Assembly (NCBI GenBank): GCA_029933125.1
Contig: JAOZOU010000005.1
Coordinates: 1-64,000 of the forward strand
DNA from: a bacterium
GTDB lineage: Bacteria > Arandabacterota > Arandabacteria > Arandabacterales > Arandabacteraceae
DNA length: 64,000 bases
Direction of reading: 5' to 3'
Part shown: positions 1 through 30,606 of the stretch, piece by piece
Layout of the letters: each line of letters opens with the position of its first letter
How positions within the stretch are numbered: the first letter of the stretch is position 1
Translations under genes and position numbers: made by a program
Notes under the pieces: generated by a model
Told to the model about the DNA's origin: nothing
The model's input: the letters and a program-made list of their open reading frames with translations, nothing else
The model's database searches: none

Positions 1-345
1 ACGATAGTAGCGTGGGGCGATAATGGCCGGGGTCAGTGTGATGTACCGGAGCCGAACAGAGGATTTGTAGCGATAGCGGCGGGGAGGTATCACAGTTTAG
101 GATTGCAGGCAGATGGTACGATAGTAGCGTGGGGGAGGAATGGCCATGGACAGTGTAATGTCCCGGAGCCCAACAGTGGATTTGTAGCGATAGCCGCAGG
201 GTCGTATCACAGTTTAGGATTGCGGGCAGATGGTACGATAGTAGCGTGGGGCTATAATTCGTCTGGTCAGTGTAATGTACCCGAGCCCAACACCGGCTTT
301 GTAGCGATATCAGGAGGAGAGTGGCACAGTTTAGGTTTGAGGCGG
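1..345 (+). repeat. 117-bp tandem repeats encoding RCC1 units
   Basis: The 18-base string starting ACGATAGTAGCG recurs at 1, 118 and 235, exactly 117 bp (39 codons) apart. Copies are close to identical at DNA level over much of their length; the third diverges at its end. The array probably continues to the left of the window. Confidence 0.9.
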
Positions 346-675
346 ATCATTGGTGTGGATCCGCTCAGCAGGAGTGGGATTGAGGCAGACACTTGGGGTG
401 GGGTTAGCATCAAGGCAATCAGACCCAATCCCTTCCGTTCTGGGGTAAAGATAAGTTATGAGGTGCCAATGGGTGTAGGGTATAGGGTTAGCGTTTATGA
501 TGTAAGGGGTCGGCTGTTGAGGGAGTTAGCGAGTGGGGTTGGAGGTAGAGGAGTAGGTAGGGTTGTTTGGGATGGTAAGACGGGAGAGGGCTCGAGAGTA
601 GTACCTGGGATATATTTTGTTGTAATAGAGGCGGGTGGTGGTAGCCGGGCGCAGAAGGTGATAAAGGTTCGTTAA
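1..675 (+). CDS. RCC1-repeat surface protein with FlgD-like C-terminal domain (5' end missing)
   Basis: The reading frame is open from base 1, so the start lies outside the window; 224 codons plus stop are visible. The N-terminal part is a series of 39-residue RCC1-type beta-propeller repeats with the core AWGxNxxGQCxVPEPN followed by FVAIAAGxYHSLGL. The last ~85 residues form a FlgD-like Ig / type-IX-style sorting domain (xRPNPF, VYDVRGR, VPGIYFV, ending KVIKVR). It is inferred to be exported and surface-attached through that domain; ligand unknown. Codon choice (many GTA, ATA, AGG, GGG, TTG) differs visibly from the next genes. A hairpin follows the stop at 710-733. Confidence 0.85.
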   Translation, partial: TIVAWGDNGRGQCDVPEPNRGFVAIAAGRYHSLGLQADGTIVAWGRNGHGQCNVPEPNSGFVAIAAGSYHSLGLRADGTIVAWGYNSSGQCNVPEPNTGFVAISGGEWHSLGLRRIIGVDPLSRSGIEADTWGGVSIKAIRPNPFRSGVKISYEVPMGVGYRVSVYDVRGRLLRELASGVGGRGVGRVVWDGKTGEGSRVVPGIYFVVIEAGGGSRAQKVIKVR

Positions 676-968: not shown

Positions 969-987
969 GCTGTGATTGTGGTATACT
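959..987 (+). promoter_or_regulatory. Sigma70-type promoter of the lamin-tail protein gene
   Basis: TTGAAC (959-964), 17-bp spacer, TATACT (982-987). Initiation near 994 would give a ~50-nt leader containing an AAGGGG/CCCCTT hairpin (1007-1025) just ahead of the ribosome site GAAGGAGG (1031-1038). Confidence 0.7.
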
Positions 988-1044
988 GTAGGCACTGAGA
1001 GAAAACAAGGGGGGAGTGTCCCCTTAAGGCGAAGGAGGTTAAAA

Positions 1045-3951
1045 ATGCGTTGGGTCGCTAGTGGTGTAGTATCCCTTTTTGTCCTTGGGCTCATTGTCGT
1101 GGGGGCTTCCTATGGAGCCAATCCAGGGGATGTTGTCATAAACGAGATCTATGTCAATACGGCTGATCCCTACGATGGCTCGGAATACATAGAGCTCTAC
1201 AACACCACACCTGATTCGATAGACCTTACAGGCTGGGTCTTAAGTGGTGTTGAATATGACGAGACCTGCGGTGAGCACCATCATGAGTTTCCATCGGGCT
1301 CAGGTATTCCTGGCTATGGCTACTTTGTTGTCGTGCGGGATGTCGCCGATGGCGACGGCTTTGTTGATCGCTTCGGCATGCGCAACATGCTCGAGAAGTA
1401 CGGACTCGAGATGTATGACAGTGGTATGTACTATGAGGTCGATGATCCTGGCGTTACTAATACAATTGTTCAGAATCCCGACGACTTTGACGATCAGATA
1501 AGATTCTATCCGATTAATAGCTACGGTGATTACGGCTACCGGTGTCCCGGCGGCGGTGTCTACGAAGTGCTCTTCCTCTTCGACAGTCCTTCACGCACCA
1601 ATCTCATAGATGCCATTGAATACAGATCGCAGGCTTGCACTCAGGATATGTGCGCAGGAGTCAATGGTACGGATGATGCCTATCCCAGGTATCCCAATGA
1701 AGGGGTTGCTCTCGGGCGCGACGAATCCTCAACAGATACCGACAATTCAGCAGCTGACCTTTATGAGGAAGCCCCAACGCCGTTTGCCCAGAACTCACTC
1801 AATCTGCCACCTGACGTCTGGTCACTTCACTATAGCCCGTGTGTCCCAACCTCAAGTGATAGCGTTGAGATATCCTGCTATGCCACAGATGACGATGGTA
1901 CTGTCGACTCGGTCATCTGCTATTATAGCGTTGAGATCCCACCAGATTATCTCCCATCGAGCTATTCGACCGTGAAGATGTATCCAGCCTCAGTTGGGGA
2001 TAGCCTATACATTGTTAATCTCCCACCTCAGGGAGATCAGTATCACATAAGATTCTATGTCAAAGCTTATGACAACCTTGGTGCAGTGACGACTCATCCA
2101 GGAGATGCTCCTGAAGGTGCGTACACCTGTTTCGTTGGAATATGTCCCATAAGTTCAATTCAGGCAGTCGATGTTGGTGATGACTCTTCTTACGTTATGG
2201 GTCAAGCAAGAAACATCACAGGTATCGTGACTGCAGGAAGAGGCGTCTATAAGGACAATCTCTTCGTTGTTCAGGAGGGTACTGGTCCGTGGTCGGGTAT
2301 CTATGTGCTTGATCCAAGCTATTCGGTGCCGGCCGAGACGGGCGACAGTGTAACCATCTCAGGCAAGGTCATCGAATACTACGGACTTACTGAGCTTATG
2401 GCCTTCAGTGGTTGCTACCAGGAGCACAGCAGTGGCAATGCGGTTCCTGAGCCTTTGCTTGTGACGACGGGTACCCTCAACACGAGCTCACCCACTGCCG
2501 AGCGCTATGAGGGTGTGCTCATAAGAGTTGATAATGTCACTGTAACCAACGACAGTCTTGGCTATGGCGAGTGGGAGATAAACGATGGCTCAGGTCCATG
2601 CATTGTCGATGATGATGCCTATTACTTCTATACTCCTCGCCTCAATGATGAGCTCGAGTCTGTAAGAGGTGTTCTTTACTACTCGTTTGGAGATTACAAG
2701 ATAGAGCCAAGAGGGGATGAAGACATAATTGGTCCGCCTGCCATCTATACGCTGAGGTATTCACCTCATGCTCCAACATCTTCTGATGTGATAGACTTAA
2801 GCTGTGTTGTCATAGGTGACAATCCCATCCTTTCGGTCAAGCTTTTCTATAGCACAAATGGTGGAGCAACCTTCGACAGCACTGCTATGACAACATCAGA
2901 TACGGTTTACACAGCGCAAATTGGCCCTTATCCTGACGATACCGTGGTTGACTATTATGTTGAGGTGTGGGACAACGCTGGCTATTCGGGGCGCAAGCCA
3001 CCTGCAGGCACTTATGATTTCAGAGTCGGCATGAACACCATCTATGAAGTCCAATATGTGACTGCTGGTGGTGACAGCTCAAGCTTGGCTGGTGAGCCAG
3101 TTAACGTCTCTGGTATAGTTACTGCAGCCACTGGCGAGTATAGCGATTTCTATTTCTACATTCAAAACTCCTATAGCGGTCCTGATACTCCAGCCTTTGA
3201 TGGAGTTAAGGTCTATGACAGGACGGGTACTGTGAGTGTGGCAAGAGGTGACAGCGTTACAGTCTCAGGTGATGTCTGGGAATATTATAAGGAGACTGAG
3301 ATAGCAATGTTCTTCCCTGAGGCAATAACAATTCACTCACACAACAATCCTGTACCCACACCCTATGTTGTCACACCCACAGCAGTGAATACTCAGGAGG
3401 ATTGGGAAGGCGTACTTGTCTCCGTAGAAGGTATCGAGGTCATCGATCCCGATCTCGGGCATGGGGAGTGGATGGTTGCTACAGTTGGCTCGCCCGGGGA
3501 TTCCTGCCGTATAGGTGACAACGGCTTTTACACATATCAGCCTGTGCTTGGTGAGGATCTCGGCTACATCCATGGCATTGGGGCTTATGCTTTCGGCTTA
3601 AGGATGCTTGAGCCAAGGGATGATGATGACATCTGTGCCTCAAGCGAAGCCGGTATCGATGAGAAGGGTGAGCCGCATGGGCTCACAATGTTCATAAGAC
3701 CCAATCCCATGACCAATGGCGGTCTGGTGAGGTTTGCTATTCCAACATCGGGCGAGGTTGAGCTCAAGATTTACAATGTCCAGGGCGCGCTGGTCAGGAC
3801 CCTGCGCGATGGCTATCTTGAGGCTGGAAGCTACAAGGTCGACTGGAACGGTCGCAATGATCAGGGTGTCAAGGTTACACCTGGTATCTACTTCGTGAGA
3901 CTCGAGGATAGAAGGGGTACCATTTCAAACAAAGTCATCATCCTCAAGTAG
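1045..3951 (+). CDS. Secreted lamin-tail-domain protein with two OB-like modules and a FlgD-like sorting domain
   Basis: 968 aa from ATG 1045, chosen because GAAGGAGG lies 6 nt upstream and a signal peptide (residues 1-24, cleavage after SYG) follows directly. Domains in order: lamin-tail domain (~25-250; DVVINEIYVN, EYIELYN, DLTGWVLSG); Ig-like (~255-365); OB-like module A (~369-560); second Ig-like (~562-665); OB-like module B (~666-864); FlgD-like/T9SS-type C-terminus (~880-968; FIRPNPM, VTPGIYFVRLE, ending NKVIILK). The OB-like modules end in a shared block resembling LGYGEWEI...DGSGP...PRDDDDI. Lamin-tail domains occur in many secreted bacterial nucleases and adhesins, but no nuclease domain is visible, so the function is unknown. 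Inferred exported. Confidence 0.88.
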   Translation: MRWVASGVVSLFVLGLIVVGASYGANPGDVVINEIYVNTADPYDGSEYIELYNTTPDSIDLTGWVLSGVEYDETCGEHHHEFPSGSGIPGYGYFVVVRDVADGDGFVDRFGMRNMLEKYGLEMYDSGMYYEVDDPGVTNTIVQNPDDFDDQIRFYPINSYGDYGYRCPGGGVYEVLFLFDSPSRTNLIDAIEYRSQACTQDMCAGVNGTDDAYPRYPNEGVALGRDESSTDTDNSAADLYEEAPTPFAQNSLNLPPDVWSLHYSPCVPTSSDSVEISCYATDDDGTVDSVICYYSVEIPPDYLPSSYSTVKMYPASVGDSLYIVNLPPQGDQYHIRFYVKAYDNLGAVTTHPGDAPEGAYTCFVGICPISSIQAVDVGDDSSYVMGQARNITGIVTAGRGVYKDNLFVVQEGTGPWSGIYVLDPSYSVPAETGDSVTISGKVIEYYGLTELMAFSGCYQEHSSGNAVPEPLLVTTGTLNTSSPTAERYEGVLIRVDNVTVTNDSLGYGEWEINDGSGPCIVDDDAYYFYTPRLNDELESVRGVLYYSFGDYKIEPRGDEDIIGPPAIYTLRYSPHAPTSSDVIDLSCVVIGDNPILSVKLFYSTNGGATFDSTAMTTSDTVYTAQIGPYPDDTVVDYYVEVWDNAGYSGRKPPAGTYDFRVGMNTIYEVQYVTAGGDSSSLAGEPVNVSGIVTAATGEYSDFYFYIQNSYSGPDTPAFDGVKVYDRTGTVSVARGDSVTVSGDVWEYYKETEIAMFFPEAITIHSHNNPVPTPYVVTPTAVNTQEDWEGVLVSVEGIEVIDPDLGHGEWMVATVGSPGDSCRIGDNGFYTYQPVLGEDLGYIHGIGAYAFGLRMLEPRDDDDICASSEAGIDEKGEPHGLTMFIRPNPMTNGGLVRFAIPTSGEVELKIYNVQGALVRTLRDGYLEAGSYKVDWNGRNDQGVKVTPGIYFVRLEDRRGTISNKVIILK

Positions 3952-4029: not shown

Positions 4030-4740
4030 ATGAGGACATTGATACCGTTATTGATGTTGAGCCTGGTTGCAACCGTTGCCTTTGGGCAGCCTGTTGTGAC
4101 AACGATTTATGACATCCAGAACGGCACAATTCCTTCCGGGACCCATGTTCAGGTCAACGATGTCGTTGTGACTGCTGGTCCCTATGAGTTCACAAGCACT
4201 GGCGCCTACTGCTTCGTTGAGGAGCAGGGTGGTGGCATGTACAGTGGTGTTGAGGTCTACTGGGGATCCGATCAGGCAGGCGTTTACGGTGGTCTCCAGC
4301 GTGGCGACATCGTGACCATTATCGGTGTTACAGGTGAATACTACGACATGACCGAGATTGACATCAGTGCAGCCGGTGATACCCTTATAGTTGTAGGACA
4401 TGGGACTGTTCCTGGTCCGGATGCTGTGACGACTGCCGGTATGATGACTGAGGAGTGGGAAGGTGTGCTCGTTCAGACACCTTGTGCCACAGTGACCAAC
4501 CCTGATCTCGGCTATGGTGAATGGGAGATCGACGACGGCTCTGGTCCTGGTAGAGTCGATGACAAGGGGCAGATAACCTACGTGCCGACTCTCGGCGACT
4601 GCAACATTTACACAGGAATTCTGGCTTACTCCTATGGCGCCTACAAACTCTGGCCACGTGACGACAATGACATCGTTCCCTGTGGTCCATCGGCTACACA
4701 GCAGACGCAGTGGGGTTCTATTAAGGCACTTTACAGATAG
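4030..4740 (+). CDS. Secreted single OB-like-module protein with WGSIKALYR tail
   Basis: 236 aa. Signal peptide 1-19 (cleavage after AFG). The mature protein is essentially one copy of the OB-fold-like module found twice in the upstream lamin-tail protein and once in the PHP protein downstream (VQVNDVVVTAG, GDIVTIIGVTGEYYDMTEI, EEWEGVLVQ, LGYGEWEIDDGSGP, KLWPRDDNDI). It ends in PSATQQTQWGSIKALYR, a tail nearly repeated in the next gene product, and it lacks the FlgD-like domain. SD GGGAGG is 9 nt upstream. Probably exported; the role is unknown. Similar folds occur beside secreted nucleases (YhcR-type OB domain), but nothing catalytic is visible. Confidence 0.8.
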   Translation: MRTLIPLLMLSLVATVAFGQPVVTTIYDIQNGTIPSGTHVQVNDVVVTAGPYEFTSTGAYCFVEEQGGGMYSGVEVYWGSDQAGVYGGLQRGDIVTIIGVTGEYYDMTEIDISAAGDTLIVVGHGTVPGPDAVTTAGMMTEEWEGVLVQTPCATVTNPDLGYGEWEIDDGSGPGRVDDKGQITYVPTLGDCNIYTGILAYSYGAYKLWPRDDNDIVPCGPSATQQTQWGSIKALYR

Positions 4741-4775
4741 GAGATCGAAGTGAGAAGATTAGTTGAGGTCGATGG

Positions 4776-4805
4776 AAAAGGTTTAAATCTTTTGACGAAA
4801 GGAGG
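4776..4805 (+). promoter_or_regulatory. Ribosome site preceded by a small hairpin
   Basis: AAAAG/CTTTT arms (4776-4780, 4789-4793) precede a near-perfect anti-16S complement AAAGGAGGTGAG starting at 4798, 9 nt before ATG 4815. Confidence 0.4.
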
Positions 4806-4814
4806 TGAGACCAG

Positions 4815-5423
4815 ATGAAGTGGTTGCTAGTGTTGGCCAGTATCTGCATGCTGGCATCGACTGGCTATGCTTATGAGGTATCCTACGGATGGGAGGACTG
4901 CGGCACCATTCTCGGTATGTATCCAGACGGTTACATAATCCCGACGAATGTGGAGACCCCTGTCCACAGCGGCTCCCGTGCTCTCCAGCTCGAGGACAAT
5001 CATCCAAGTGGGACACCTCAGGCATTCGTTGCCTATATCTATGGCTTGACAGATGGCGATCAGGTCTATGTTAGTTTCTGGCGCTATGATGTAACTCCTG
5101 GTGCAGCACCATCCTGCCGTATCTGGGCGCACTGGAATGATTCAGATCCGCCAGACATCGGTGGATACAATGGTAGCGCCGGTGGTAACGACGACTATGG
5201 ACCTGGTACCGGCTGGGATATGACCGATTGGACGTGGACAGTTGCTGACGGGCACACAGGTATCGTGATTGAGTGCCGTACCTATTCCAATCCTGGTGAT
5301 ATCGTCTGGATAGATGATATGTACATCAGTGCACCTGATCATGCGACGATCCTTGTGCCTGAGCCAGGACCTTCAGCAACTGAGAAGACCAGCTGGGGCA
5401 GCATTAAGTCGCTCTATCGCTGA
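4815..5423 (+). CDS. Small secreted beta-rich protein with WGSIKSLYR tail
   Basis: 202 aa. Signal peptide 1-19 (cleavage after GYA). The mature part is rich in Trp, Tyr, Gly and Asp and reads like a jelly-roll or carbohydrate-binding-module fold (HSGSRALQLED, VYVSFWRYDVTPG, ending IVWIDDMYIS), but I cannot assign a family. The C-terminus PSATEKTSWGSIKSLYR closely matches the upstream protein's tail. A very strong ribosome site (GGAGGTGA) suggests high expression. It is the last gene before a strong terminator at 5443-5480, so 1045-5423 probably forms one transcription unit. Confidence 0.8.
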   Translation: MKWLLVLASICMLASTGYAYEVSYGWEDCGTILGMYPDGYIIPTNVETPVHSGSRALQLEDNHPSGTPQAFVAYIYGLTDGDQVYVSFWRYDVTPGAAPSCRIWAHWNDSDPPDIGGYNGSAGGNDDYGPGTGWDMTDWTWTVADGHTGIVIECRTYSNPGDIVWIDDMYISAPDHATILVPEPGPSATEKTSWGSIKSLYR

Positions 5424-5442: not shown

Positions 5443-5480
5443 AGCTCCGACCCCCGCAGCGGGGTCGGAGCTGATTTTTT
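5443..5480 (+). terminator. Strong rho-independent terminator
   Basis: A perfect 12-bp stem (AGCTCCGACCCC at 5443-5454, GGGGTCGGAGCT at 5461-5472) with a 6-nt loop is followed by GA and a run of six T (5475-5480). It ends the secreted-protein unit. Confidence 0.92.
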
Positions 5481-5631: not shown

Positions 5632-7635
5632 GTGAAGAAATTTATTTTTCTCTTTTGTCTCATCATGGTGGCACAAAGTGCATACGCATACAATGTCTAC
5701 TATGGCAACTTGCATGCCCATTGTGATTACTCAGATGGGATCGGTACGGCTCAGCATGCTTACGCCTATGCGAGGGATACCGCACTTGTGGATGTTCAAG
5801 CACTCACCGATCACAGCCATATGCTTTCAGCATCCGAATACTCGAATATGAGGACCATAGCAGCAGCATATACCCAAGATGGTGTCTTTGTTGCTCTTGC
5901 CGGTCAGGAACATGGAAGCCTCAGTACAACCCATTCAGGTGCATTTGGACACATGAACTTCTATGAAGCCACAGTTGTCATCCCCCAGTATGAAAACGGT
6001 GGGACTGACTATCGTTACAATCTTGCTGGTACTTATTCGTGGCTTGTGAGCCATACGGATGGTATCCTTGGCAATCCTCTTTACGCCGTCTTCAACCATC
6101 CTTACTACTCAGGTGGCTGTGAGCCTGATGCTCAATTCCACCACTTTGCGTATTCGGTTACAGGGGATTCAGCGATGTCCTTGACGGAGATCCGCAATGG
6201 GCGGCGTGCAGATAACTATGAACCTGAATACTTCGATGTGCTTTCGAAAGGCTGGCATGTGGGGGTGACTGCCAATCAGGACAATCATGAGGGAATGTGG
6301 GGAGATCAACCCAACCCCTACAGTGGTAATGATATCTATCTTACCGGAATCCTGGCTGATACGCTGACCAAAGAGGCTATCCTTATAGCACTCAAGGATA
6401 GACGTACATTTGCTGTGGAGGTAAATCCCAAGAGTGATAGAATGGCCATTCTATTTCAGTGCGAAGGGCACTGGATGGGGGATGTTTTTGAGACAGCAGC
6501 TGATACAGTTCACTTTGACATAACCGTCTGGGCTCAAAATGACTTCATTTCAGTTGAGCTCATCCGCAACGGGATGCAGGTAGATTATGTGAGCCCTGGA
6601 ACAAACTATTATGAATGGCATCCTGAGGATGATCCCCCAATGGGCGAATCCTACTATTTCGTAAGAGCTCAGCAGACAGATGGAGACTATCTCTGGTCGA
6701 GTCCAATCTGGGTGATAAGTACCTCAGAGGAGTGGGATCCTATAAGTGCAGTCAATGAGGATGACTCAAATGGTGAGCCAGTTCTGCTCTATCAGCAGGT
6801 AACCATCAAGGGTAGAGTGACAGCTGGCACAGGCACCTTCTCATCGATCGATAACTATATCTTTGTTCAGGATGCAACAGGTGGAGTCAATGTTGTTAAG
6901 CGCAATTCACTTGAACCTTCTGTGAGCGTTGGAGATAGTGTGACCGTCAGTGGTACGGTGGATCAGTCAGCTGGCTTGACCAAGATATCCAGTCCAACGA
7001 TAACACTTGAGGCAACAGGTCTTGGCGAGCCTCTACCACTTCTTATAACGACAGGTGATATCGAGTCGAATGGAGAGATCTATGAAGGCCTCTTCGTGAA
7101 GGTTGAGGGCTGTAGTTTGTCGGCTGGTACATGGCCAGATGAAGGCTCTGATGGCTCTGTAACAATTGATGATGGAAGCGGTGGCTGTACCCTCTTCATA
7201 GATAGTGATACCGATATCGATGGCTCAACACCTCCTACGGGTAGATTTGATGTTGTAGGCATCGTAACCCAGTATGATCCTACCTTCCCTTACTGGTCAG
7301 GCTATCGCCTAATGCCGAGGTCGACTGCCGATATTCTGCCGACATCTGGAATCCCAAGCGCCATTGCTAGCTCATCACCATGGATATTCGTGAAGAGCCC
7401 TGGAAGGGGAAAGGTAGTCCTTGAGTTTGCCCGGGAGATTGTTGATAAACACAAGAAACTTACCTTCTACAATGTCAATGGTCGCAAGGTTGATGCTCTC
7501 ACTGTTCCATCTGGAAGGATGAGCCTTCGCTGGCCAGGAGAAAGTGCTATGAGGAATGTCTCGAGCGGCATCTACTTTGCAGTGGTGGATGTGGGAGGCG
7601 AGCGCCAAGTAGCTAAAGTTGTCCTCATAAGGTAA
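5632..7635 (+). CDS. Secreted PHP-domain metallo-phosphoesterase with OB-like and FlgD-like domains
   Basis: 667 aa from GTG 5632 (SD AGGAGGA). Signal peptide 1-19 (cleavage after AYA). The PHP domain (~20-260) keeps the expected metal ligands: H28 and H30 (GNLHAHCDYSDG), D60/H61 (LTDHSH), E93/H94 (GQEHG), H156 (FNHP), D217/H219 (NQDNHEG). An Ig-like segment (~270-365) follows, then one OB-like module (~370-570) of the type in the two upstream proteins, and a degenerate FlgD-like C-terminus (GIYFAVVDVGG, ending KVVLIR). PHP proteins hydrolyse phosphoesters using a trinuclear metal site; a secreted version could act on nucleic acids, phospho-sugars or phospholipid headgroups. The substrate is not determinable here. 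It has its own promoter. Confidence 0.88.
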   Translation: MKKFIFLFCLIMVAQSAYAYNVYYGNLHAHCDYSDGIGTAQHAYAYARDTALVDVQALTDHSHMLSASEYSNMRTIAAAYTQDGVFVALAGQEHGSLSTTHSGAFGHMNFYEATVVIPQYENGGTDYRYNLAGTYSWLVSHTDGILGNPLYAVFNHPYYSGGCEPDAQFHHFAYSVTGDSAMSLTEIRNGRRADNYEPEYFDVLSKGWHVGVTANQDNHEGMWGDQPNPYSGNDIYLTGILADTLTKEAILIALKDRRTFAVEVNPKSDRMAILFQCEGHWMGDVFETAADTVHFDITVWAQNDFISVELIRNGMQVDYVSPGTNYYEWHPEDDPPMGESYYFVRAQQTDGDYLWSSPIWVISTSEEWDPISAVNEDDSNGEPVLLYQQVTIKGRVTAGTGTFSSIDNYIFVQDATGGVNVVKRNSLEPSVSVGDSVTVSGTVDQSAGLTKISSPTITLEATGLGEPLPLLITTGDIESNGEIYEGLFVKVEGCSLSAGTWPDEGSDGSVTIDDGSGGCTLFIDSDTDIDGSTPPTGRFDVVGIVTQYDPTFPYWSGYRLMPRSTADILPTSGIPSAIASSSPWIFVKSPGRGKVVLEFAREIVDKHKKLTFYNVNGRKVDALTVPSGRMSLRWPGESAMRNVSSGIYFAVVDVGGERQVAKVVLIR

Positions 7636-12806: not shown

Positions 12807-12827
12807 TATTCTTTTGTGGAGGCACCT

Positions 12828-14156
12828 ATGTGGTTTAAGAAGAAAACCAGGTTACTGATCATTGGACTCGATGGCACCCCCTTAAGCTTCGTAAAGTCAA
12901 ACGTCGAGAAGGGCAATCTCCCGGCCCTTGAGCAACTCTTCGCCAGCGGCTCGCTTGTTGAGATAAAGTCCACCCATCCCTTCGTATCGTGTGTTGCCTG
13001 GTCAACCTATATGACGGGCAAGAATGCTGGAAAGCACAATATCTTTGGATTCATAGATCGCAAACCAGGTACCTATTCCATCTACATTCCAAATTCTTCG
13101 AATATGACAAGTGCGACCATCTGGGAACTTCTAAGTGAGATGGGCAAGGCTGTGCTTGTTATGAATGTGCCCGTGACCTATCCACCTCGCAAGGTAAATG
13201 GCTATCTCGTATCCGGTTTTCTCGCTCCCAAGGTGGATGGAGCAACCTATCCTTCCGAGCTCGCGGTCAAGCTAAAGGCAATGGACTATGAGATTGATAT
13301 CGATCCTTGGCGTGCGAGGGAAAGTCTCGACAATCTCTATCCCGATCTCATGCGCGTCGTTAAGGCTCGTATAAGTGCATTCATAAAGCTTCTTAAGGAG
13401 CGCAAGTGGGATTTTGCACAACTTCACATCATGGAAACCGACAGACTCTACCACTTTATGTGGGAACATATGGAGGCTGGTCACCCCAAGTATGCTAAGG
13501 AGTTTATGGAAGTCATAAAGGCAATTGATGAGGGTGTTGGAGAGATTGTTGAAGCTGCTGGTAAGGACTACACTATTGTGGTTATGTCGGACCATGGCTT
13601 CTGCTCGGTCGAGAAGGAAATCTATCTCAATCATTTTCTTGAGAAACGCGGCTATCTCAACTATAAGACTGACAACCCAAAGTCCCTTGAAGACATAGAT
13701 CCCAAGACAACCAAAGTCTTTTGTATGGATCCGGGTCGCTTCTACATCAACCTTGAGGGGCGTGAGGCTCAAGGCTGCGTGGGTAAGAGCGAATACAATA
13801 AGCTCAGGGAAGAGCTTAAGGGTGAGCTTGAGGATTTAACAGACGAGAATGGAGTCAAAGTGATAAAAGATGTCTTCACCAAGGACGAGCTCTACAGTGG
13901 ACCCAACTTTGAGATTGCACCCGATATAGTCATCAATCCAGTTGATGGCTATGATCCCAAAGGTGCATTTGGCAAGAAGACACTTTCAGGAAAAGGTCCA
14001 ATTGTGGGAATGCACACCTATGACAACGCCATGCTCTTTGCTCAAGATCACGATCTCAGGCCAGGCGGTGGTGTAGTCGATGTGACGCCAACACTCTACG
14101 AGCTTCTGGGTATAAAACCACCTCAAGATTTTGACGGCGTTTCACTCATTGCCTAG
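12828..14156 (+). CDS. Alkaline-phosphatase-superfamily hydrolase (type I phosphodiesterase-like), AP1
   Basis: 442 aa from ATG 12828 (SD GGAGG 5 nt upstream; an in-frame GTG at 12816 is less likely). No signal peptide, so probably cytoplasmic. Expected AP-superfamily positions: D15 (IIGLDG), nucleophile position S54 (FVSCVAW), D205/H209 (ETDRLYHF), D255/H256 (MSDHGF) and a final His in GMHTYDN. The family hydrolyses phosphomono- or diesters, nucleotide pyrophosphates or sulfate esters by a two-metal mechanism. Ser replaces the Thr found at this position in two of its four paralogues here. No C-terminal LGY tail. It converges with cysC (18-bp gap). The substrate is unknown. Confidence 0.85.
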   Translation: MWFKKKTRLLIIGLDGTPLSFVKSNVEKGNLPALEQLFASGSLVEIKSTHPFVSCVAWSTYMTGKNAGKHNIFGFIDRKPGTYSIYIPNSSNMTSATIWELLSEMGKAVLVMNVPVTYPPRKVNGYLVSGFLAPKVDGATYPSELAVKLKAMDYEIDIDPWRARESLDNLYPDLMRVVKARISAFIKLLKERKWDFAQLHIMETDRLYHFMWEHMEAGHPKYAKEFMEVIKAIDEGVGEIVEAAGKDYTIVVMSDHGFCSVEKEIYLNHFLEKRGYLNYKTDNPKSLEDIDPKTTKVFCMDPGRFYINLEGREAQGCVGKSEYNKLREELKGELEDLTDENGVKVIKDVFTKDELYSGPNFEIAPDIVINPVDGYDPKGAFGKKTLSGKGPIVGMHTYDNAMLFAQDHDLRPGGGVVDVTPTLYELLGIKPPQDFDGVSLIA

Positions 14157-14174
14157 CCATACTTTTGTGCTTTA

Positions 14175-14786
14175 CTACTCTATGTAGCCGAGTCCCCTCA
14201 GGCGTTCCTTTATCTTTTCCTCTTCATCTGCACTGACTGTCTGAGGTGCATCCTTGCTTTTGCCTATGAAGCCAAGAGCTTCCATAGTTGCAATGACCTT
14301 CCTTACACATGTATCGACATCTTCGGTTTCGGTATCACATACAACCTCAGGCTTTTCAGGTTCTTCAAATGGCATGTGCCAACCAGCAATATCTTTTACC
14401 TCACCACGCTCAGCACGTTTGTATAGGCCCTTGGGATCACGCTGTTTGCAAGTGTCAAGCGATGCCTTCACGTAGACCTCGAGGAATTGATCAACCATGG
14501 CTCTTGCTCTATCACGGTGTTTTCTCAAAGGTGATACCGCCGCTACGATTGCGCAAACACCATTGCGCGTGAGAATTTTGCCCATGAAGGCAAGGCGCTT
14601 GGTATTGAGATCTCTGGCTTCTGGAGTATAGCCAAGATCTGGACTCAGATTTGCTCGAATCTCATCGGCATCGAGATTCTCAACCTTTATGCCCCTTTCC
14701 TTAAGAGCTTTCTCGACTCCCCTTCCAATTGTCGACTTGCCGGCAGCCGGTACACCTGTAAACCAGATGAGCGTTCCCTTTTCCAT
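14175..14786 (-). CDS. cysC: Adenylylsulfate (APS) kinase with extra C-terminal LGY tail
   Basis: 203 aa. Phosphorylates APS to PAPS with ATP in the cytoplasm. P-loop GVPAAGKST at 11-19; NLDADEIRANLSPDLGYTPEARDLN matches the CysC substrate region (Asp and Arg-binding loop), then VSPLRKHRDRAR, FLEVYVKASLDTCKQRDPKGLYKRA. It is the last gene of sat-AP2-cysC. The kinase fold should end near residue 178 (ALGF). The last ~25 residues are an add-on ending KIKERLRGLGYIE, matching tails on AP4 and AP5 in this window. Standalone kinase, not fused to Sat. PAPS implies downstream sulfotransfer or sulfate reduction; neither enzyme is in view. Confidence 0.95.
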   Translation of the reverse strand: MEKGTLIWFTGVPAAGKSTIGRGVEKALKERGIKVENLDADEIRANLSPDLGYTPEARDLNTKRLAFMGKILTRNGVCAIVAAVSPLRKHRDRARAMVDQFLEVYVKASLDTCKQRDPKGLYKRAERGEVKDIAGWHMPFEEPEKPEVVCDTETEDVDTCVRKVIATMEALGFIGKSKDAPQTVSADEEEKIKERLRGLGYIE

Positions 14787-14799
14787 TGAATCCCCCTTC

Positions 14800-16188
14800 C
14801 TATAGCTCGATTATCTTTCCTTCCATATCTTCAGGTACCTTGATACCCATTACATTAAGAACAGTTGGAGCGACATCATATATTGAAAGATCCTCAAGTT
14901 GCTTTCCTCTCTTGACCTTCGGATCCCAGAGAATGAAGATGCCATCTTCGGCATGAACAGCATCATCCGGGCCTACCTCGGTTTCAAAGGAATGAATTGA
15001 ATCGTGCCCGATTGTTCCAGTTGACCTCCAGTAAAGGTCGCCAAAGTAGATTATGAGGTCAGGAGCCTGATCTATGTTAGGTCCTGTGTAGGCTTCCTGT
15101 GGCTTGAAAACCCTTGTTCCGATGTTCTTACCCTTCTCATCTGTTATGGCTTTTAGCTTTTCAGCGATCTCATCCCGAACCTTTTCATAGTCATCGGGAT
15201 CAACTGCACCCATTTTCTCTCTTCCCTTAACATTGAGGAAGAGTCTGCCGTAGTAGCCACCTAAACCCCAGGCTTTGGTTCTTGGCCAGTCAATGTCAGC
15301 CTCTTCGAGTTTAACCAGCCCACTCGGTTTGCTCTTCAATGTCATGTAGCCTTCCTGGATGAGCCAATCGTTTATATTGATTGCTCCTTCCATCTTTTTG
15401 GCACCGTGGTCTGAGACAACAAGAACAACAGTTTCATCATCGATTATCTTGAGCAAGCCACCGATTCGCTCATCGAGGTACTTGTAGTATTCGTAGATTG
15501 CGTTCTCGTACTTATTTCCTGGTTCATACTTGCGATGGGTCTTGTCGAAGAACTTCCAGAAGCCATGCTGGATTCGATCTAAGCCTATTTCGACGAACAT
15601 AAAGAAATGCCAGGGCTTTTCCTTGAGAAAGTATTCCACAAGGTCAAAGCGCTTGGTTGTCATATCATGGATTTCAGCGAGCAGGGCGTCCTTGTTTTCA
15701 GTACGAAACTTCTCACAATCGAGCTTATAGTCCCCAACTGCCATTCTCACTTCATCCTTGATGAATTCAGGGAAGGTATAGTCAGCATTGGTATCAGGAG
15801 CAAGCCAGTCGGTAACCATGAAACCATTTACAGGTCGAGGTGGATACGTTTGGGGAACTCCAACCAATCCAACCTTGTAGCCCTCACGCCCTATTATGTC
15901 CCAGAGAGTTGGCTCCTTTATAGCAGTTGAATTGGCAATCCAGAAATTATCATAGGAATACTCACTGCGGTTGCGGAAACCAAAGATGCCGAGCATCCCG
16001 GGATTCTTACTTGTAACCATGCACATCCATGCTGGTATAGTAATCGGTGGGATACTGCTTCTGAGCTTCCCCCAGACACCCTCGCCGACAAGGCGCTTGA
16101 TGTTAGGCAGATCATCAAGCCATTGTTCAAATACCAATTCAGGAGCTGCGCAATCGAGACCTACAATCAGCACTTTTCGCTTAAGCAT
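14800..16188 (-). CDS. AP-superfamily hydrolase inside the sulfate-activation operon, AP2
   Basis: 462 aa, no signal peptide. Metal and nucleophile positions intact: D12 (IVGLDC), T50 (PPITIPAW), D204/H208 (GLDRIQHGF), D260/H261 (VSDHG) and a late His pair in TIGHDSIHSFE. Transcribed between sat (15 bp upstream) and cysC (13 bp downstream), so co-expressed with PAPS synthesis. That context suggests work on a nucleotide or sulfate-containing product, for example hydrolysis of APS/PAPS-type phosphosulfates or of 3',5'-ADP, or on a sulfated lipid. This is inference. It also carries YPPRPVNGFMV, close to YPPRKVNGYLV in AP1 and YPPEKINGVMI in AP4, marking a common subfamily. Confidence 0.87.
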   Translation of the reverse strand: MLKRKVLIVGLDCAAPELVFEQWLDDLPNIKRLVGEGVWGKLRSSIPPITIPAWMCMVTSKNPGMLGIFGFRNRSEYSYDNFWIANSTAIKEPTLWDIIGREGYKVGLVGVPQTYPPRPVNGFMVTDWLAPDTNADYTFPEFIKDEVRMAVGDYKLDCEKFRTENKDALLAEIHDMTTKRFDLVEYFLKEKPWHFFMFVEIGLDRIQHGFWKFFDKTHRKYEPGNKYENAIYEYYKYLDERIGGLLKIIDDETVVLVVSDHGAKKMEGAININDWLIQEGYMTLKSKPSGLVKLEEADIDWPRTKAWGLGGYYGRLFLNVKGREKMGAVDPDDYEKVRDEIAEKLKAITDEKGKNIGTRVFKPQEAYTGPNIDQAPDLIIYFGDLYWRSTGTIGHDSIHSFETEVGPDDAVHAEDGIFILWDPKVKRGKQLEDLSIYDVAPTVLNVMGIKVPEDMEGKIIEL

Positions 16189-18136: not shown

Positions 18137-18157
18137 GGGAACCCTCAAGGGGTTCCC
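18137..18157. terminator. Hairpin in convergent 3' region
   Basis: GGGAACCC (18137-18144) and GGGTTCCC (18150-18157) form a perfect 8-bp stem. The AP3 stop codon lies in the loop. Neither side has a T-run, so it may be a bidirectional 3' stabiliser or a weak terminator. Confidence 0.4.
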
Positions 18158-19605
18158 GTGGCTTCTATCTTGAGAGTCCTGAGGATCGTGGGAAAGACCG
18201 ATGTGATATGCATGTCACCTTCAGATATTTCAAGAGGGCAGTTTTCAAGCATCAGGACACCATACTTACCATGTCCACCTGAGACCTTCTTGTGAGTCGA
18301 GCTGCGACCGGTAATACCGCAATAGATACTTCGATCGATGCCATAACCAGGTGTGAGCTCAAAAACGACATCAGGATATTTGTCAACATTGCGGCCAGTG
18401 AAAGCTTCTTCGCGCCGTTTTGCCCAGATGACGAGAGCCTCGCCTGATTTTGTCCTTAAAGACCTGAGGATGTTAAGGAGTTTTTCCCTTAAATCCTCGT
18501 AGGTGATTCCCCTTTGAGCAAGCAGCCTGCGATTGATCTCTATGCCACCGAATGATGTGCCACCGCCAACATCGGATACCCAGGCAAGACTTGCCTGGCG
18601 ATCGATTGCATATGCTGAAGTCTTGAGTCGCTTGCGGCGCTTCCGGGGTATGATGCTTGCTATACGATAAACCAGGTCCTCAAGATCGAGACGCTGCATA
18701 ATCTGGAGGAAACTATTCTTTGCCCATTCGGTAAGAGCAACTGAGGTTGATCCAAGAAGACCTGTCTTTGTAGGTTCAACAATACCCTCCCGGCGAAGCA
18801 CCTCATTGAGATAGACTGCATTGGGTGGACGCATGCCATGGCCGTGGTCGCTTACAATGAGCAAGGTCTGGCTTGGGGAAAGGCGTTCCATGAAACGCCC
18901 GACAATCGAATCGAAGAGCTCAAAGAAGTGTTTTATCTTGTTCTCAAAGGGATTCTTGCCTGGATAAGTTGGATCTTCGGGGTCAGTATATCTCCACAGA
19001 AAGTGCATGACTCTATCAAGGGTGAGAAAACAAAGGAAATAGACATCCCATGCCTCAAGGTCAAGGAGTTTGAGTCCAAAGTCAGCAAGATCGAGTGTCA
19101 CCTTCTCTGTTCTTTCGATGAAGTCCCTTAGCTCCTTCTTACCCGGGAAATCAACCATTCCACCCATTTCAGGCACTTCATAGGTGGAGAGAATCTCTCG
19201 GGGATATGCCTGAACCTCTCCAGTTATGAACACGGGCCCATTTACCATGATGCCATTGACAGGCCAGACTGGATAAGCGAGCAGGGGGTTGATAACACAA
19301 ACACGCTTTCCAGATCTGCTTGCCACGTCCCAGAAGGTGCGGCCTTTTATGAGGCTTGTATCGAGCACCTTGGCACCCCCGCGGATCTCGAGGTAGTCAA
19401 CCGAGTCCACTATCCCATGCTGCCAGGGTTGCATGCCGGTGTAAATACTCACCCATGCAGGGATTGAATCCGGTGGCATCGTTGATTCAAGACGTCGCAT
19501 GGAGCCGTGCATCATTATGCGGTTGAAATTGGGAAGGCTATCTCGCCATCTATGGAGAAGGTCAGGATCAAGCGCATCGATTCCAATTATGACGATCTTG
19601 CTCAA
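18145..19605 (-). CDS. AP-superfamily hydrolase in a GT4/kinase operon, AP3
   Basis: 486 aa, no signal peptide. D10 (IIGIDALD), nucleophile position S47 (PPDSIPAW), D197/H201 (TLDRVMHF), D253/H254 (VSDHGHG) and a final His in SGGHGKYGV. Between SDHG and the last His lies a ~190-residue lid-like region containing a strongly basic stretch (IIPRKRRKRLKTS), which could contact a membrane surface or an anionic substrate. It overlaps the upstream kinase-like gene by 4 bp (ATGA), so the two are translationally coupled. No LGY tail. Together with a GT4 and a P-loop kinase it is likely to act in making or trimming a glycan or phospho-glycan; the substrate is unknown. Confidence 0.85.
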   Translation of the reverse strand: MSKIVIIGIDALDPDLLHRWRDSLPNFNRIMMHGSMRRLESTMPPDSIPAWVSIYTGMQPWQHGIVDSVDYLEIRGGAKVLDTSLIKGRTFWDVASRSGKRVCVINPLLAYPVWPVNGIMVNGPVFITGEVQAYPREILSTYEVPEMGGMVDFPGKKELRDFIERTEKVTLDLADFGLKLLDLEAWDVYFLCFLTLDRVMHFLWRYTDPEDPTYPGKNPFENKIKHFFELFDSIVGRFMERLSPSQTLLIVSDHGHGMRPPNAVYLNEVLRREGIVEPTKTGLLGSTSVALTEWAKNSFLQIMQRLDLEDLVYRIASIIPRKRRKRLKTSAYAIDRQASLAWVSDVGGGTSFGGIEINRRLLAQRGITYEDLREKLLNILRSLRTKSGEALVIWAKRREEAFTGRNVDKYPDVVFELTPGYGIDRSIYCGITGRSSTHKKVSGGHGKYGVLMLENCPLEISEGDMHITSVFPTILRTLKIEATGTP

Positions 19606-22799: not shown

Positions 22800-23117
22800 G
22801 TGAAGGAGACTATTGAACACATTCTTAAAGCCGAGGCTCAGGCAAAAAGTATTATTGAGGAAGCCAGAAGCCAGGCCAGGCAGATTACAGATGCTGCCCG
22901 CAAGGAAGCAGGCAAAATAGTTCAGGATGCTCGCCACAAAGCCCAGGCTGAGGCTCAGGCTCTCCTGGAGAGGGCTAAGCAAGAGGCATTGGCTGAGAAG
23001 CAACGCATCATAGAGGGTGCCAAGGCCAAAACCAAGGCGAGAATTGAAGAGATGGGCGAGATAGATCCTCAAATCATAGCCTCCGCTGTGCACAAAATAG
23101 CTGGACTCGAGTCATGA
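22800..23117 (+). CDS. V/A-type ATPase coiled-coil stalk subunit (H/G type)
   Basis: 105 aa from GTG 22800. Almost entirely a heptad-like, Ala/Glu/Lys-rich coiled coil (AEAQAKSIIEEARSQARQ, repeated EAxxxAxxI pattern), as in the peripheral-stalk subunit that dimerises with subunit E. First gene of the ATPase operon and overlaps subunit C by 4 bp. Identity rests on composition, size and position rather than a strong motif. Confidence 0.8.
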   Translation: MKETIEHILKAEAQAKSIIEEARSQARQITDAARKEAGKIVQDARHKAQAEAQALLERAKQEALAEKQRIIEGAKAKTKARIEEMGEIDPQIIASAVHKIAGLES

Positions 23118-24151
23118 AATCACTTGCCAGGTATGCCGCTACCAATGCCTTAACGCGGACGATGCTTGGCGAGCTCCTCAAGCCCAAAGACTATGAAGCC
23201 CTGGCAAGAGCTGAATCCCTTGAAGGTGCCTGGCTGGCATTGCGCAAGACACCTTATGAGCAATGGCTTCCCGAAGAAGCACCAACTGAGGTTCTCGCTA
23301 TTGAGAGGGCCACAGCCGAAGCAACCGCTCTGAGATTCAGGCGTTCAGTTAGAAGTCTTAAGGGTAAGCCTCGAGAGGTAGGAAATCTTCTGCTCTCCCG
23401 CTGGGAACTGGATAACCTTGAGTTCACTTTGAGACTATGGCATGCCAGGGATATCTCACTTTCGAAATTCGTTTCACCACTTACCCTTGTCAACCGTATA
23501 CCTCTATATGACATCCTCGAGGCTGAATCCATTGAGGGGGTTGCACTTGCTCTTAAGGATACTCCCTATTTTGGACCCGTATCATCGAGTATCGCTGCTT
23601 ATAAGCGAAGGAAGGCAATCTTCTTTGTGGAGATGGAGCTCGAGAGGGATTACTATAAACGCCTTCTCGAAGCCACAGCTGCCCTCAGTGGGACAGATGC
23701 AAAGCGTGCAGCAAAGATCGTCGGAGCTGAGATCGATATAGTCAACATTGTAATGCTGACACGTCTCGTAGACTATTACGAATTCAAGCCCGAGGACTTC
23801 GGTGCCTACGCAATACCGGGACCTTCAGAGATATCAAGGCGACTTTCAACGGGTGTTCTTTCAGAAAAGGACATAGAAGACGCAAGAACTAAGGTTCTGA
23901 GTCAGTACCTTCCTGAGGCTTCATCGGCCCAGCTACGTGATTCAATATCCTTGCTTGAACGTGTCGTGAGGGAGATGGCAGTTGATGTCGCAAGATCTGC
24001 ACTCATGGGATATCCATTCAGCATAACCTGTGTTTTTGCTTTCTATCTTCTCAAGCGCAATGAGCTTGAAAACTTAAGAACCATTTTTGGTGGTAAGGCA
24101 ATCGGTGTGGATGAAGAAGAGATCATGAAGCATCTCTACGGTCTGGGATAA
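23114..24151 (+). CDS. V/A-type ATPase subunit C
   Basis: 345 aa. All-helical protein of the family that links the central rotor (D/F) to the membrane c-ring; length is usual. Typical features: an N-terminal YAATNALTRTMLGELLKPKDYEAL segment in the style of bacterial/archaeal NtpC, an internal repeat of the three-helix unit (ALAR...LAL), and a C-terminal YPFSITCVFAFYLLKRNELENLRTI block, which is a hallmark. Overlaps the preceding gene and is 4 bp from subunit I. Confidence 0.9.
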   Translation: MKSLARYAATNALTRTMLGELLKPKDYEALARAESLEGAWLALRKTPYEQWLPEEAPTEVLAIERATAEATALRFRRSVRSLKGKPREVGNLLLSRWELDNLEFTLRLWHARDISLSKFVSPLTLVNRIPLYDILEAESIEGVALALKDTPYFGPVSSSIAAYKRRKAIFFVEMELERDYYKRLLEATAALSGTDAKRAAKIVGAEIDIVNIVMLTRLVDYYEFKPEDFGAYAIPGPSEISRRLSTGVLSEKDIEDARTKVLSQYLPEASSAQLRDSISLLERVVREMAVDVARSALMGYPFSITCVFAFYLLKRNELENLRTIFGGKAIGVDEEEIMKHLYGLG

Positions 24152-24155
24152 AGTT

Positions 24156-26159
24156 ATGGCACTTGTAGCTGAGCGTATGAATCTTGTGACCTTCCTTGTC
24201 ATGCGAGATGACATGGATGCTGTTATCGAGGAGGTTGCCAGGCGAGGTGTTCTTCATCTTACCAGGGTGGAGGAAGTCGATGAGTGGGCGGAAAAGCTTG
24301 GGAAGATAAGCGTGGAGACACTTTCGGGAGAATATTCCAAGCGGCGCCGCAGGCTTACCGAGATACTTGAACAGCTTGGCTGTGAGGATACATCAGGTGT
24401 TGCGGTTTCAGGACATGCGACTACCGTGGTTGATCTTAAGAGCATGGATCACGAGATAGCAGAGATTGAGACAGAGATCCAGCCGGTTCTTCTTAAGCGG
24501 CGTCAGCTTGTTGAGAAAAAACGCGAGCTTGAGAGCTTGCGTGATCAGATTGAAGCGCTTGGGCCCAGAGGTCTACCCGTAGGCGGCCTGATGAAATCCT
24601 CACTGCTTGCAACTGCGATCGGCGTGATTGAAGATCGCAATCTTGAGTATCTCCGCAGTCTCCTTGGGAGCATACCATCTGTCGTTTTGCCATTCAGGGT
24701 AGAGGGCAAGAAGGTGCATATTATCTGTGTCGTTCTTAGGAGGGATAGAGGAAGACTCGATGAAGCCTTGAAGAAGGTGGGCTTTGAAGAGATTGAGATA
24801 TCCGGAGATGTTACCACGCTTTCCGAAGAAGTTGGAGGCGATATCACTCAAAAGATATTAAAGATTGAGGAGCAGCTGAGGGAGGTGGCAGATGAGGTCC
24901 AGTCCCTTCGCCACAAATACGAGGGCAAGCTAAGGGAGCTTCTGGCAAGAGTTGAAGCTGCATTACTCCTTCTTAAGATAGAGACCTATTGTAAGGTGAC
25001 TGAGAAGACATGCCTTTTTGCGGGTTGGGTTCCCGCGAAGAGGACACAATCCTTGATCGAAGCTGTCAAAAGCAGGACGGGTGGAAGAGCAATTGCTGAA
25101 GTTGTTGAAGCTGATAAGGTGGTTGCTGAGAAAGGGGGAAAAGTTGAAGTACCAGTTCTCCTCGAACAGCCATCCTTCCTAAAACCCTTTCAGATGCTTG
25201 TAAGTGGCTATGGGATGCCCGCATATGGCACAATCGATCCAACCATTTTTGTTGGCGTGACCTTTCTTTTCATGTTTGGGATGATGTTTGGTGATGTTGG
25301 ACATGGACTCGTGCTTCTTTTAGCGAGCATCATCCTCTTCCTTAAGTCAAAGCGACTACGTGAACCAGCAAAACTGGGCATCTATTGCGCAAGCTCATCA
25401 ATTGTCTTTGGTTTCCTCTACGGTAGTATCTTTGGTCTTGAAGATGTTCTGCCAACGTTGTGGCTTAAGCCCCTCGACAGCATAACCGACCTCTTCAAGG
25501 TTGCCATCGGTTTTGGAATCATCGTCGTCAGCCTTGGCATAATTCTCAACATCATAAATTCCTTACGAACTCATGCCTTCCTTGAAAACTTCTTTGACAA
25601 GGCTGGCCCCCTCATAGGCGTTGTCTACTGGGCAAGTGTTGGATTGGCAATCAAGTGGATGGTAAGCGGCAGCTCGCCTTTGAGCACCTCACTTGGCTAC
25701 TATCTCATTGCGATTCCGCTTGCTATTTTCGTTGTCCGTGGCCCGATCCTTCGCATCATGGGTAAACGCAAGCGTATGTTCCCTGATGGCGTTGGGACCT
25801 ACATTCTCGAGTCAGCAGTTGAAATCCTTGAGATATTCATGGGTTATCTTGCCAACACAGTCTCCTTCATTCGTGTTGCGGCATTTGGCCTTGCTCATGC
25901 AGGGCTCTTCATTGCTGTTTTCAGTCTGGCTGATGTTGTTGCTTCCAAACCCGGAGGGACATTGCTTTCATGGATCGTGATCATTTTCGGCAACATCGTC
26001 ATAATCTTGCTTGAAGGTCTTGTTGTAACAATTCAAGCACTCAGGCTTGAGTATTACGAGTTTTTTGGTAAGTTCTTCAAAGGCCTTGGTTCGAAATACC
26101 AGCCTGCTGGATTCTCTGAAGCTGGCCTGGCATTTCAACATGAGAAAGGTGGTGGATAG
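24156..26159 (+). CDS. V/A-type ATPase subunit I (a subunit, membrane stator)
   Basis: 667 aa. The N-terminal ~330 residues are cytoplasmic and coiled-coil rich; about seven to eight membrane segments follow. They include PTIFVGVTFLFMFGMMFGDVGHGL and a late segment TVSFIRVAAFGLAHAGLF carrying the essential Arg of the ion half-channel, then GLVVTIQALRLEYYEFFGKFF, all hallmark motifs. It forms the ion path with the K ring. The length is normal for the family. The gene ends 1 bp before the favoured K start. Confidence 0.95.
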   Translation: MALVAERMNLVTFLVMRDDMDAVIEEVARRGVLHLTRVEEVDEWAEKLGKISVETLSGEYSKRRRRLTEILEQLGCEDTSGVAVSGHATTVVDLKSMDHEIAEIETEIQPVLLKRRQLVEKKRELESLRDQIEALGPRGLPVGGLMKSSLLATAIGVIEDRNLEYLRSLLGSIPSVVLPFRVEGKKVHIICVVLRRDRGRLDEALKKVGFEEIEISGDVTTLSEEVGGDITQKILKIEEQLREVADEVQSLRHKYEGKLRELLARVEAALLLLKIETYCKVTEKTCLFAGWVPAKRTQSLIEAVKSRTGGRAIAEVVEADKVVAEKGGKVEVPVLLEQPSFLKPFQMLVSGYGMPAYGTIDPTIFVGVTFLFMFGMMFGDVGHGLVLLLASIILFLKSKRLREPAKLGIYCASSSIVFGFLYGSIFGLEDVLPTLWLKPLDSITDLFKVAIGFGIIVVSLGIILNIINSLRTHAFLENFFDKAGPLIGVVYWASVGLAIKWMVSGSSPLSTSLGYYLIAIPLAIFVVRGPILRIMGKRKRMFPDGVGTYILESAVEILEIFMGYLANTVSFIRVAAFGLAHAGLFIAVFSLADVVASKPGGTLLSWIVIIFGNIVIILLEGLVVTIQALRLEYYEFFGKFFKGLGSKYQPAGFSEAGLAFQHEKGGG

Positions 26160-26160
26160 A

Positions 26161-26511
26161 TTGAAATCAAAGAATGCTCTGCAGAAAGCTATAGTTTATT
26201 CATTTGTTGTGGTGGTTGTTGTTGCCTTATCGGTGCTTGCAATTACAATAGCGAAAGCCCATGCGCAGCAGTCGCAAGGTACACCAATTGATAGTAGGAC
26301 AGTCGGGTGGGCATTCCTTGCTGCAGCAATCTCTACAGGTTTCGGTTGCGTCGGTGCGGGGATAGCTGTGGCATACGTTGGTGCTGCTGCCGTGGGTGCG
26401 GTGGGCGAGAAGCCTGAGGTTGCAGGCAGGACACTTATCTTCGTCGGTCTTGCTGAAGGAATAGCAATTTATGGTCTCATCATCGCAATCATGATTCTGG
26501 GCAAGGTTTGA
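26161..26511 (+). CDS. V/A-type ATPase subunit K (c-ring proteolipid)
   Basis: 116 aa from TTG 26161, favoured because AAAGGTGG lies 8 nt upstream and the subunit I stop is 1 bp before; ATG 26140 is in frame but lacks a ribosome site. An N-terminal hydrophobic stretch ending AKAHAQ looks like a cleavable signal peptide. Two transmembrane helices follow: the first glycine-rich (GFGCVGAGIAVAYVGAAAVG), the second with the ion-carrying E99 in GLAEGIAIYGLII. GEKPE forms the polar loop. I cannot tell H+ from Na+ use with confidence. A single hairpin per subunit, as in bacterial F/V c-subunits, not the duplicated NtpK type. Confidence 0.9.
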   Translation: MKSKNALQKAIVYSFVVVVVVALSVLAITIAKAHAQQSQGTPIDSRTVGWAFLAAAISTGFGCVGAGIAVAYVGAAAVGAVGEKPEVAGRTLIFVGLAEGIAIYGLIIAIMILGKV

Positions 26512-26512
26512 G

Positions 26513-26818
26513 ATGAAATTCTTTGTGATCGGCGATTGGCATACAGTAGCTGGTTTCGGACTTGTTGGTATAGAGGGTAAAAGTGTTAGTGATCGCAACC
26601 AGGCAAAGGAAGCACTGGATTCAGCAGTTGAACGGAAGGATATAGGTGTTGTCCTCATCACTGAGGACATCGCTGAGATCATACGTGATGAAGTCGATGC
26701 TAGACTCTATGGAATCGGCTTCCCCCTGGTGCTTGAGATCCCGGGTCCAAAGGGGCCTTCCGAGAAGCGGCTCAAGATAGAGGATGTAGTACGCAAGGCT
26801 ATTGGAATAAGCATATGA
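26513..26818 (+). CDS. V/A-type ATPase subunit F (NtpG-like)
   Basis: 101 aa. Compact alpha/beta protein: MKFFVIGDWHTVAGFGLVGI, then DIGVVLITEDIAEIIRDEV, then LVLEIPGPKGPSEK, all typical of the rotor subunit F that pairs with D. Starts 1 bp after subunit K and overlaps subunit E by 4 bp. Confidence 0.93.
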   Translation: MKFFVIGDWHTVAGFGLVGIEGKSVSDRNQAKEALDSAVERKDIGVVLITEDIAEIIRDEVDARLYGIGFPLVLEIPGPKGPSEKRLKIEDVVRKAIGISI

Positions 26819-30602: not shown

Positions 30603-30606
30603 CACT

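Follow-up and report, generated by a model that had tools for sequence, protein, structure and literature searches.

Near the start of the window, by which we mean the whole stretch of 64,000 nucleotides that was analyzed, two adjacent genes encode exported proteins that end in nearly the same 18 residues, and the locus raises the question of what this shared end is for. The original prediction held that the two proteins are otherwise dissimilar and that their common end may be a compact sorting or processing signal used alongside a type-IX-style domain. The proteins and their tails are as follows.

4030 to 4740, forward strand: exported protein 1 (236 amino acids), with a Sec signal-peptide-like N-terminus, a tandem OB-fold body and a WGxIKxLYR tail
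4684 to 4737, forward strand: tail of protein 1, GPSATQQTQWGSIKALYR, with the core WGSIKALYR at 4711 to 4737 and the stop codon TAG (4738 to 4740) directly after it
4815 to 5423, forward strand: exported protein 2 (202 amino acids), with a signal-peptide-like N-terminus, a beta-rich body and a WGxIKxLYR tail
5367 to 5420, forward strand: tail of protein 2, GPSATEKTSWGSIKSLYR, with the core WGSIKSLYR at 5394 to 5420 and the stop codon TGA (5421 to 5423) directly after it

The assignment of protein 1 rests on its open reading frame, its signal-peptide-like N-terminus, an OB-fold model and matches in the PDB. BLASTP aligned the two proteins only over their last 18 residues, of which 14 are identical (E value, 3e-7; common pattern, GPSAT..T.WGSIK.LYR), and because the alignment is confined to that end, the bodies are considered unrelated. 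The description of a shared C-terminal motif on two adjacent and otherwise dissimilar secreted proteins was thus accurate; the range first given for it, 4680 to 5423, does contain both tails but spans the end of the first open reading frame and all of the second. AlphaFold modeled protein 1 as a mostly confident tandem OB-fold body, with the tail (residues 221 to 236) predicted to be disordered at a pLDDT of about 30. The model of protein 2 was beta-rich and of low confidence, its body had no match in Pfam or NCBIfam, and a search of the PDB gave no convincing relative for protein 2 or for the tail. The tail sequences bear out the predicted lack of a hydrophobic helix, and without a transmembrane helix, a PEP-CTERM or LPXTG identity is ruled out.

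A degenerate DNA pattern for exact copies, W..[IV]K.[hydrophobic][YF]R followed by a stop, matched the 3.2-Mb source genome 21 times (11 forward and 10 reverse), and the reversed control matched nowhere. The tail found on the two proteins is therefore far beyond chance. An 18-residue profile search of the same genome recovered about 30 good copies, among them some variants ending in K or H. The 8 Arandabacterota genomes available, which represent 6 genera and 3 families, all carry the tail, with 9 to 31 exact copies each and 149 in total, and all controls were zero. The proposal would have been refuted had no other secreted proteins in the genome carried the tail; the scan of the genome and its relatives found many.

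Taken together, the loci supplied 9,046 distinct reading frames that end in a stop codon, and among them the core W[GS]x[IV]Kx[LMI][YF][RK] occurred 187 times. It was flush with the stop codon in 182 cases, within two residues of it in 4 and internal in 1, and the reversed motif did not occur in the same frames. These loci had been selected for tails, which biases the tail count and leaves the near-absence of internal copies unbiased. Counting back from the stop, S or T is found at -10 in 96% of tails, G at -8 in 91%, I at -6 in 92% and R at -1 in 96%, with W at -9, K at -5, L, M or I at -3 and Y or F at -2. The high frequency at positions fixed by the search pattern is partly a matter of construction, and the lysine at -5, present in 188 of 188 tails and invariant also in A1, is required by the motif. 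A looser P-(V/T)-E lies N-terminal to the core at about -15 to -13, so that the consensus reads P-[VTA]-E-x-x-[ST]-W-G-x-I-K-x-[LM]-Y-R-COOH, its upstream part being loose. By a home-made heuristic, signal-peptide-like N-termini were present on 88% of 155 tailed proteins versus 21% of 302 other open reading frames at the same loci. UAG stop codons ended 113 of 188 tailed genes and 43 of 72 genes of the other, FlgD-like tail class versus 107 of 297 other open reading frames; as a tail-specific feature, this excess was set aside, being mostly accounted for by the terminal Arg/Lys context.

Tandem paralogues do occur among the tailed genes, such as four successive genes at 147 to 151 kb of contig C152 of the source genome, and they would suit a tail that is merely the fold of one duplicated family; chance or a DNA repeat might also produce similar ends. 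At the conserved positions, however, all six arginine codons and all six leucine codons are used, so that conservation acts on the protein and a DNA repeat is ruled out. The bodies are unrelated as well, the tail is disordered in the model and the reversed controls are zero. A duplicated-family, chance or repeat origin is thus ruled out and keeps next to no weight with us, and the suspicion that the motif is part of one duplicated fold falls with the unrelated bodies and the predicted disorder.

Nor does the form of the tail point readily to simple adhesion. The last nine residues have a mean helical hydrophobic moment of 0.57 versus 0.40 for shuffles (strand moment, 0.50 versus 0.39), and W at -9, I at -6, L at -3 and Y at -2 can share one face, so the tail might be an amphipathic helix by which secreted proteins adhere to a membrane or some other surface with no specific receptor. 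We find this improbable: a near-invariant W, K and R and an exact stop position are over-specific for membrane binding, the tail is very short and the model of protein 1 has no helix there. PDZ domains read free C-termini with defined last residues, and a tail of this kind could suit quality control, recognized by a PDZ-type protease or chaperone in the periplasm. The usual PDZ ligand, however, has a hydrophobic last residue, whereas 96% of the tails end in R; the tailed proteins are also mature, exported and intact in their domains, and the tail swaps with secretion tails, so that a quality-control tag seems very improbable indeed.

The bodies of 93 tailed proteins matched NosD/beta-helix, LTD, NHL, laminin-G and thioester domain families, the NCBI choice-of-anchor J, E and V domains, and families named for PEP-CTERM, MYXO-CTERM and rhombosortase-dependent proteins. 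Neither Pfam (2025) nor NCBIfam (June 2026) has a model that spans the tail in these 93 proteins. After removal of the tails, 21 of 188 tailed proteins still matched at least one of about 75 sampled proteins with a FlgD-like end, and in the best pairs the alignment reaches the tail junction or nearly so. The window offers a case of its own among the following neighbors.

103 to 675, forward strand: fragment of an RCC1-repeat exported protein with a FlgD-Ig/T9SS type A tail
976 to 3951, forward strand: exported protein with LTD and OB-fold segments and a FlgD-Ig/T9SS type A tail, the tail-swap partner of protein 1
5443 to 5472, forward strand: strong intrinsic-terminator-like hairpin 3' of protein 2, a 12-pair stem followed by a T run
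5632 to 7635, forward strand: the next gene, an exported CehA/McbA-like metallohydrolase with a DUF5689/OB region and a divergent FlgD-like tail

Neighbors ending in FlgD-like Ig domains had been noted at the outset, and this is so for the proteins at 103 to 675 and 976 to 3951, both above the cut-offs of Pfam FlgD_ig and TIGR04183 (36.8 bits against 23 for TIGR04183 in the second), but the protein at 5632 to 7635 matches TIGR04183 only weakly. The OB body of protein 1 is 42% identical over 161 amino acids to a segment of the protein at 976 to 3951 (E value, 4e-25) and is also related to the FlgD-like-tailed protein at 5632 to 7635. The body of protein 2 is 58% identical to part of a protein in another class (L065), which has about 170 residues between that part and its own tail. 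Judged by these alignments, the bodies occur with either tail, like proteins with interchangeable sorting tails, and the window itself holds a swap. The hairpin probably marks the end of a transcription unit, and since it follows the second stop codon, the co-directional genes at 976 to 3951, 4030 to 4740 and 4815 to 5423 are probably one transcription unit, an operon that is inferred.

Elsewhere in the window, open reading frame translations indicate several paralogues resembling the alkaline phosphatase/phosphodiesterase superfamily (12816 to 16188, 18145 to 19605, 47006 to 48715 and 59808 to 61067), which sit amid membrane proteins and glycosyltransferase-like genes. A V/A-type ATPase operon, complete-looking by the same kind of evidence, lies at 23114 to 31236.

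The exact C-terminal placement, the association with signal peptides, the unrelated bodies and the exchange with the type A/FlgD tail lead us to conclude that the tail is very probably a C-terminal sorting signal, although there are no cleavage data.

A scan of 84,980 genomes yielded at least 113 stretches with the tail. Among the matches listed, the labels were Eisenbacteria, Krumholzibacteriota, Latescibacterota, Zixibacteria, Cloacimonadota, Gemmatimonadota, Coatesbacteria, WOR-3, Poribacteria, UBP1 and Effluviviaceae; none of those listed was labeled Bacteroidota, and absence elsewhere is unproved. The labels are the submitters' own, and a lone match within a phylum may be due to chance. 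Judged by matching contigs and hit coordinates, NCBI carries Arandabacterota members themselves under the names "Candidatus Eisenbacteria" or "bacterium" MAGs (CSMAG_463, CSMAG_2923, M3-30_Bin_374 and Meg22_1012_Bin_348). As no more than a guess, the phylum might be the Joyebacterota of PMC9727166, a close relative of Eisenbacteriota. Tails were found in 39 of 47 Eisenbacteriota genomes (381 copies, with controls at zero) and were missing from the other 8. A search centered on Zixibacteria SM23_81, which covered just 4 genomes, gave few copies. As far as can be read from the sequences, hundreds of exported proteins, otherwise unrelated to one another, finish in this tail in a range of uncultured phyla allied to Bacteroidota. 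Separately, a WSKIKLLFR C-terminus was seen in two genomes of a small Zixibacteria-labeled lineage (G057, contig C15, 4763 to 4792; G060, contig C18, 10131 to 10160); it could be the form that the tail takes in this clade, or the match may be due to chance.

What, then, reads the tail? The anticipated co-occurrence with T9SS genes is present, as 8 of 8 Arandabacterota genomes encode SprA, the PorV family and C25 proteases as well as type A/FlgD tails. The SprA of the source genome scored 536 bits against a cut-off of 200, and each genome of the phylum has 9 to 18 PorV-family barrels, 9 to 27 C25 proteases and 54 to 138 FlgD_ig domains. SprA matches were obtained in 49 of 50 named genomes with tails, 42 of them over the cut-off, and in none of 14 controls. 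A few of these 49 are too weak to be real SprA, and a handful of tail-bearing MAGs have no convincing SprA, for which incompleteness is possible. No covariation of SprA with the tail was found within the 47 Eisenbacteriota genomes, where SprA is near-universal (36 of 39 genomes with tails versus 7 of 8 without; P = 0.54). Tail count followed PorV count in Eisenbacteriota only via genome size (partial correlation, 0.18; P = 0.23).

Tailed genes showed no overall enrichment near PorV or C25 genes. A PorV-like barrel near tailed genes nevertheless recurs in the source genome (G000) and in G001, G003 and G004, and it is divergent to the tailed gene in several genera. Two tailed genes followed by a C25 gene form an order that is repeated, wholly or in part, in G000, G001 and G005. 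An arrangement seen across genera combines a PorV-like barrel in divergent orientation with one or two tailed proteins and a PorU-like C25 protease of about 1,480 to 1,500 amino acids whose own end is a type A/FlgD tail (L245, at 24000 to 35425 of contig C161 in the source genome, L255, L256, L257, L258 and L262). PorV/PorQ-family barrels are expanded, to the 9 to 18 copies mentioned for Arandabacterota (e.g., L231 to L238) and to 6 to 15 in Eisenbacteriota, which suggests several T9SS shuttles. The original prediction had also raised a dedicated peptidase; clustering of open reading frames in the at least 113 stretches and the loci of the phylum itself revealed no recurrent neighbor that could be a dedicated peptidase or receptor.

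On these observations we propose a pathway in which Sec would first export the tailed proteins by way of their N-terminal signal peptides and the tail would then take them through the outer membrane or bring them onto it. The most likely reader would be the type IX translocon (SprA and shuttle barrels of the PorV family), and the tail may be a stripped-down type A CTD that has retained the K-x-[hydrophobic]-[aromatic]-R end without the beta-sandwich. The invariant lysine is inferred to contact the reader, and release, anchoring or cleavage afterwards is inference only. This T9SS reading is favored because SprA, PorV and C25 co-occur with the tail, FlgD tails swap with it and the K...R ends are alike. 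It is weakened because the tail matches no CTD model, does not track the near-universal SprA within Eisenbacteriota and shows no overall clustering with PorV or C25, and because it lacks motifs B and D, which known CTDs need. On balance, our confidence that T9SS reads the tail is evenly divided; the reader is inferred, and there are no export data.

Alternatively, and tentatively, the tail could belong to a separate, undescribed export or anchoring route beside T9SS in FCB candidate phyla, with its own receptor binding the free C-terminal nonapeptide. Such a receptor would fit the lack of similarity to T9SS CTD models and a residue order and register unlike those of FlgD tails, which at the same loci end K(-6)...R/K(-1), whereas the tail has its lysine at -5 and an invariant W. 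The few tailed MAGs without SprA agree with it, and 7 of the 8 tail-less Eisenbacteriota genomes have SprA, so that another factor decides whether tails are present. Yet no recurrent neighbor gene was found, nearly all tailed genomes have SprA and the PorV family, and the exchange of bodies with type A/FlgD tails suggests a common destination. As for the compact signal first proposed, then, the sorting role is supported and T9SS genes co-occur, but processing, the identity of the reader and dependence on T9SS lack demonstration.

An unmodeled signal of this kind lets the surface and secreted proteomes of phyla known almost only from MAGs be read from sequence. If T9SS reads the tail, it is far smaller than the T9SS signals in the literature cited here and puts to the test whether the beta-sandwich or the last residues carry the information of a CTD; if T9SS does not, a second export or anchoring pathway awaits discovery. 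Eisenbacteriota, with 39 genomes that have tails and 8 that lack them, offer a set for a comparative receptor search.

A literature search for the tail motif, limited to open-licence papers and covering 5.39 million of them for its letters, returned nothing relevant; the comparison here is with known signals of other sequence. The T9SS type A CTD (TIGR04183/PF18962) is likewise C-terminal, occurs on Sec-exported proteins with diverse bodies and is exchangeable with the tail; both have a near-invariant lysine close to the C-terminus, which in the tail the motif itself requires, and the last residue is often R or K. The type A CTD is a beta-sandwich of about 70 to 80 amino acids with motifs B, D and E, whereas the tail has about 18 residues, is predicted to be disordered and has an invariant W. 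Neither TIGR04183 nor PF18962 (Por_Secre_tail) matched the window tails or emerged as a common family of the 93 tailed proteins. In Bacteroidota CTDs, the near-invariant, functionally important lysine near the C-terminus touches PorV (PMC10994853); CTDs do not function without their C-terminal end, and in HBP35 the signal for targeting lies in the last 22 residues (PMC11285876). The shortest T9SS signals in the cited literature are those of Prevotella intermedia, functional CTDs of 40 to 55 amino acids with motifs B, D and E (PMC11969387). Like the tail, they are shortened, conserve a basic residue (theirs lies in motif E) and exist beside long CTDs; unlike it, they have three predicted beta-strands, another sequence and another lineage, and they keep motifs B and D (GxY), which are absent from the tail logo. 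Set against them, the tail reads most naturally as a signal cut down to an end resembling motif E. Type B CTDs with their PorP/SprF shuttles (PMC12618676) are a precedent for a second signal class with shuttle barrels of its own, but the type B CTD folds as a domain and has five conserved motifs, and no shuttle is assigned to the tail. The PEP-CTERM, LPXTG, MYXO-CTERM and rhombosortase anchors are also short, modular and C-terminal on choice-of-anchor bodies, but each of those combines a motif with a transmembrane helix and a basic cluster, whereas the tail has no hydrophobic helix. C-terminal sorting signals are thus already a known kind, and it is in sequence, size and lineage that the tail is new.
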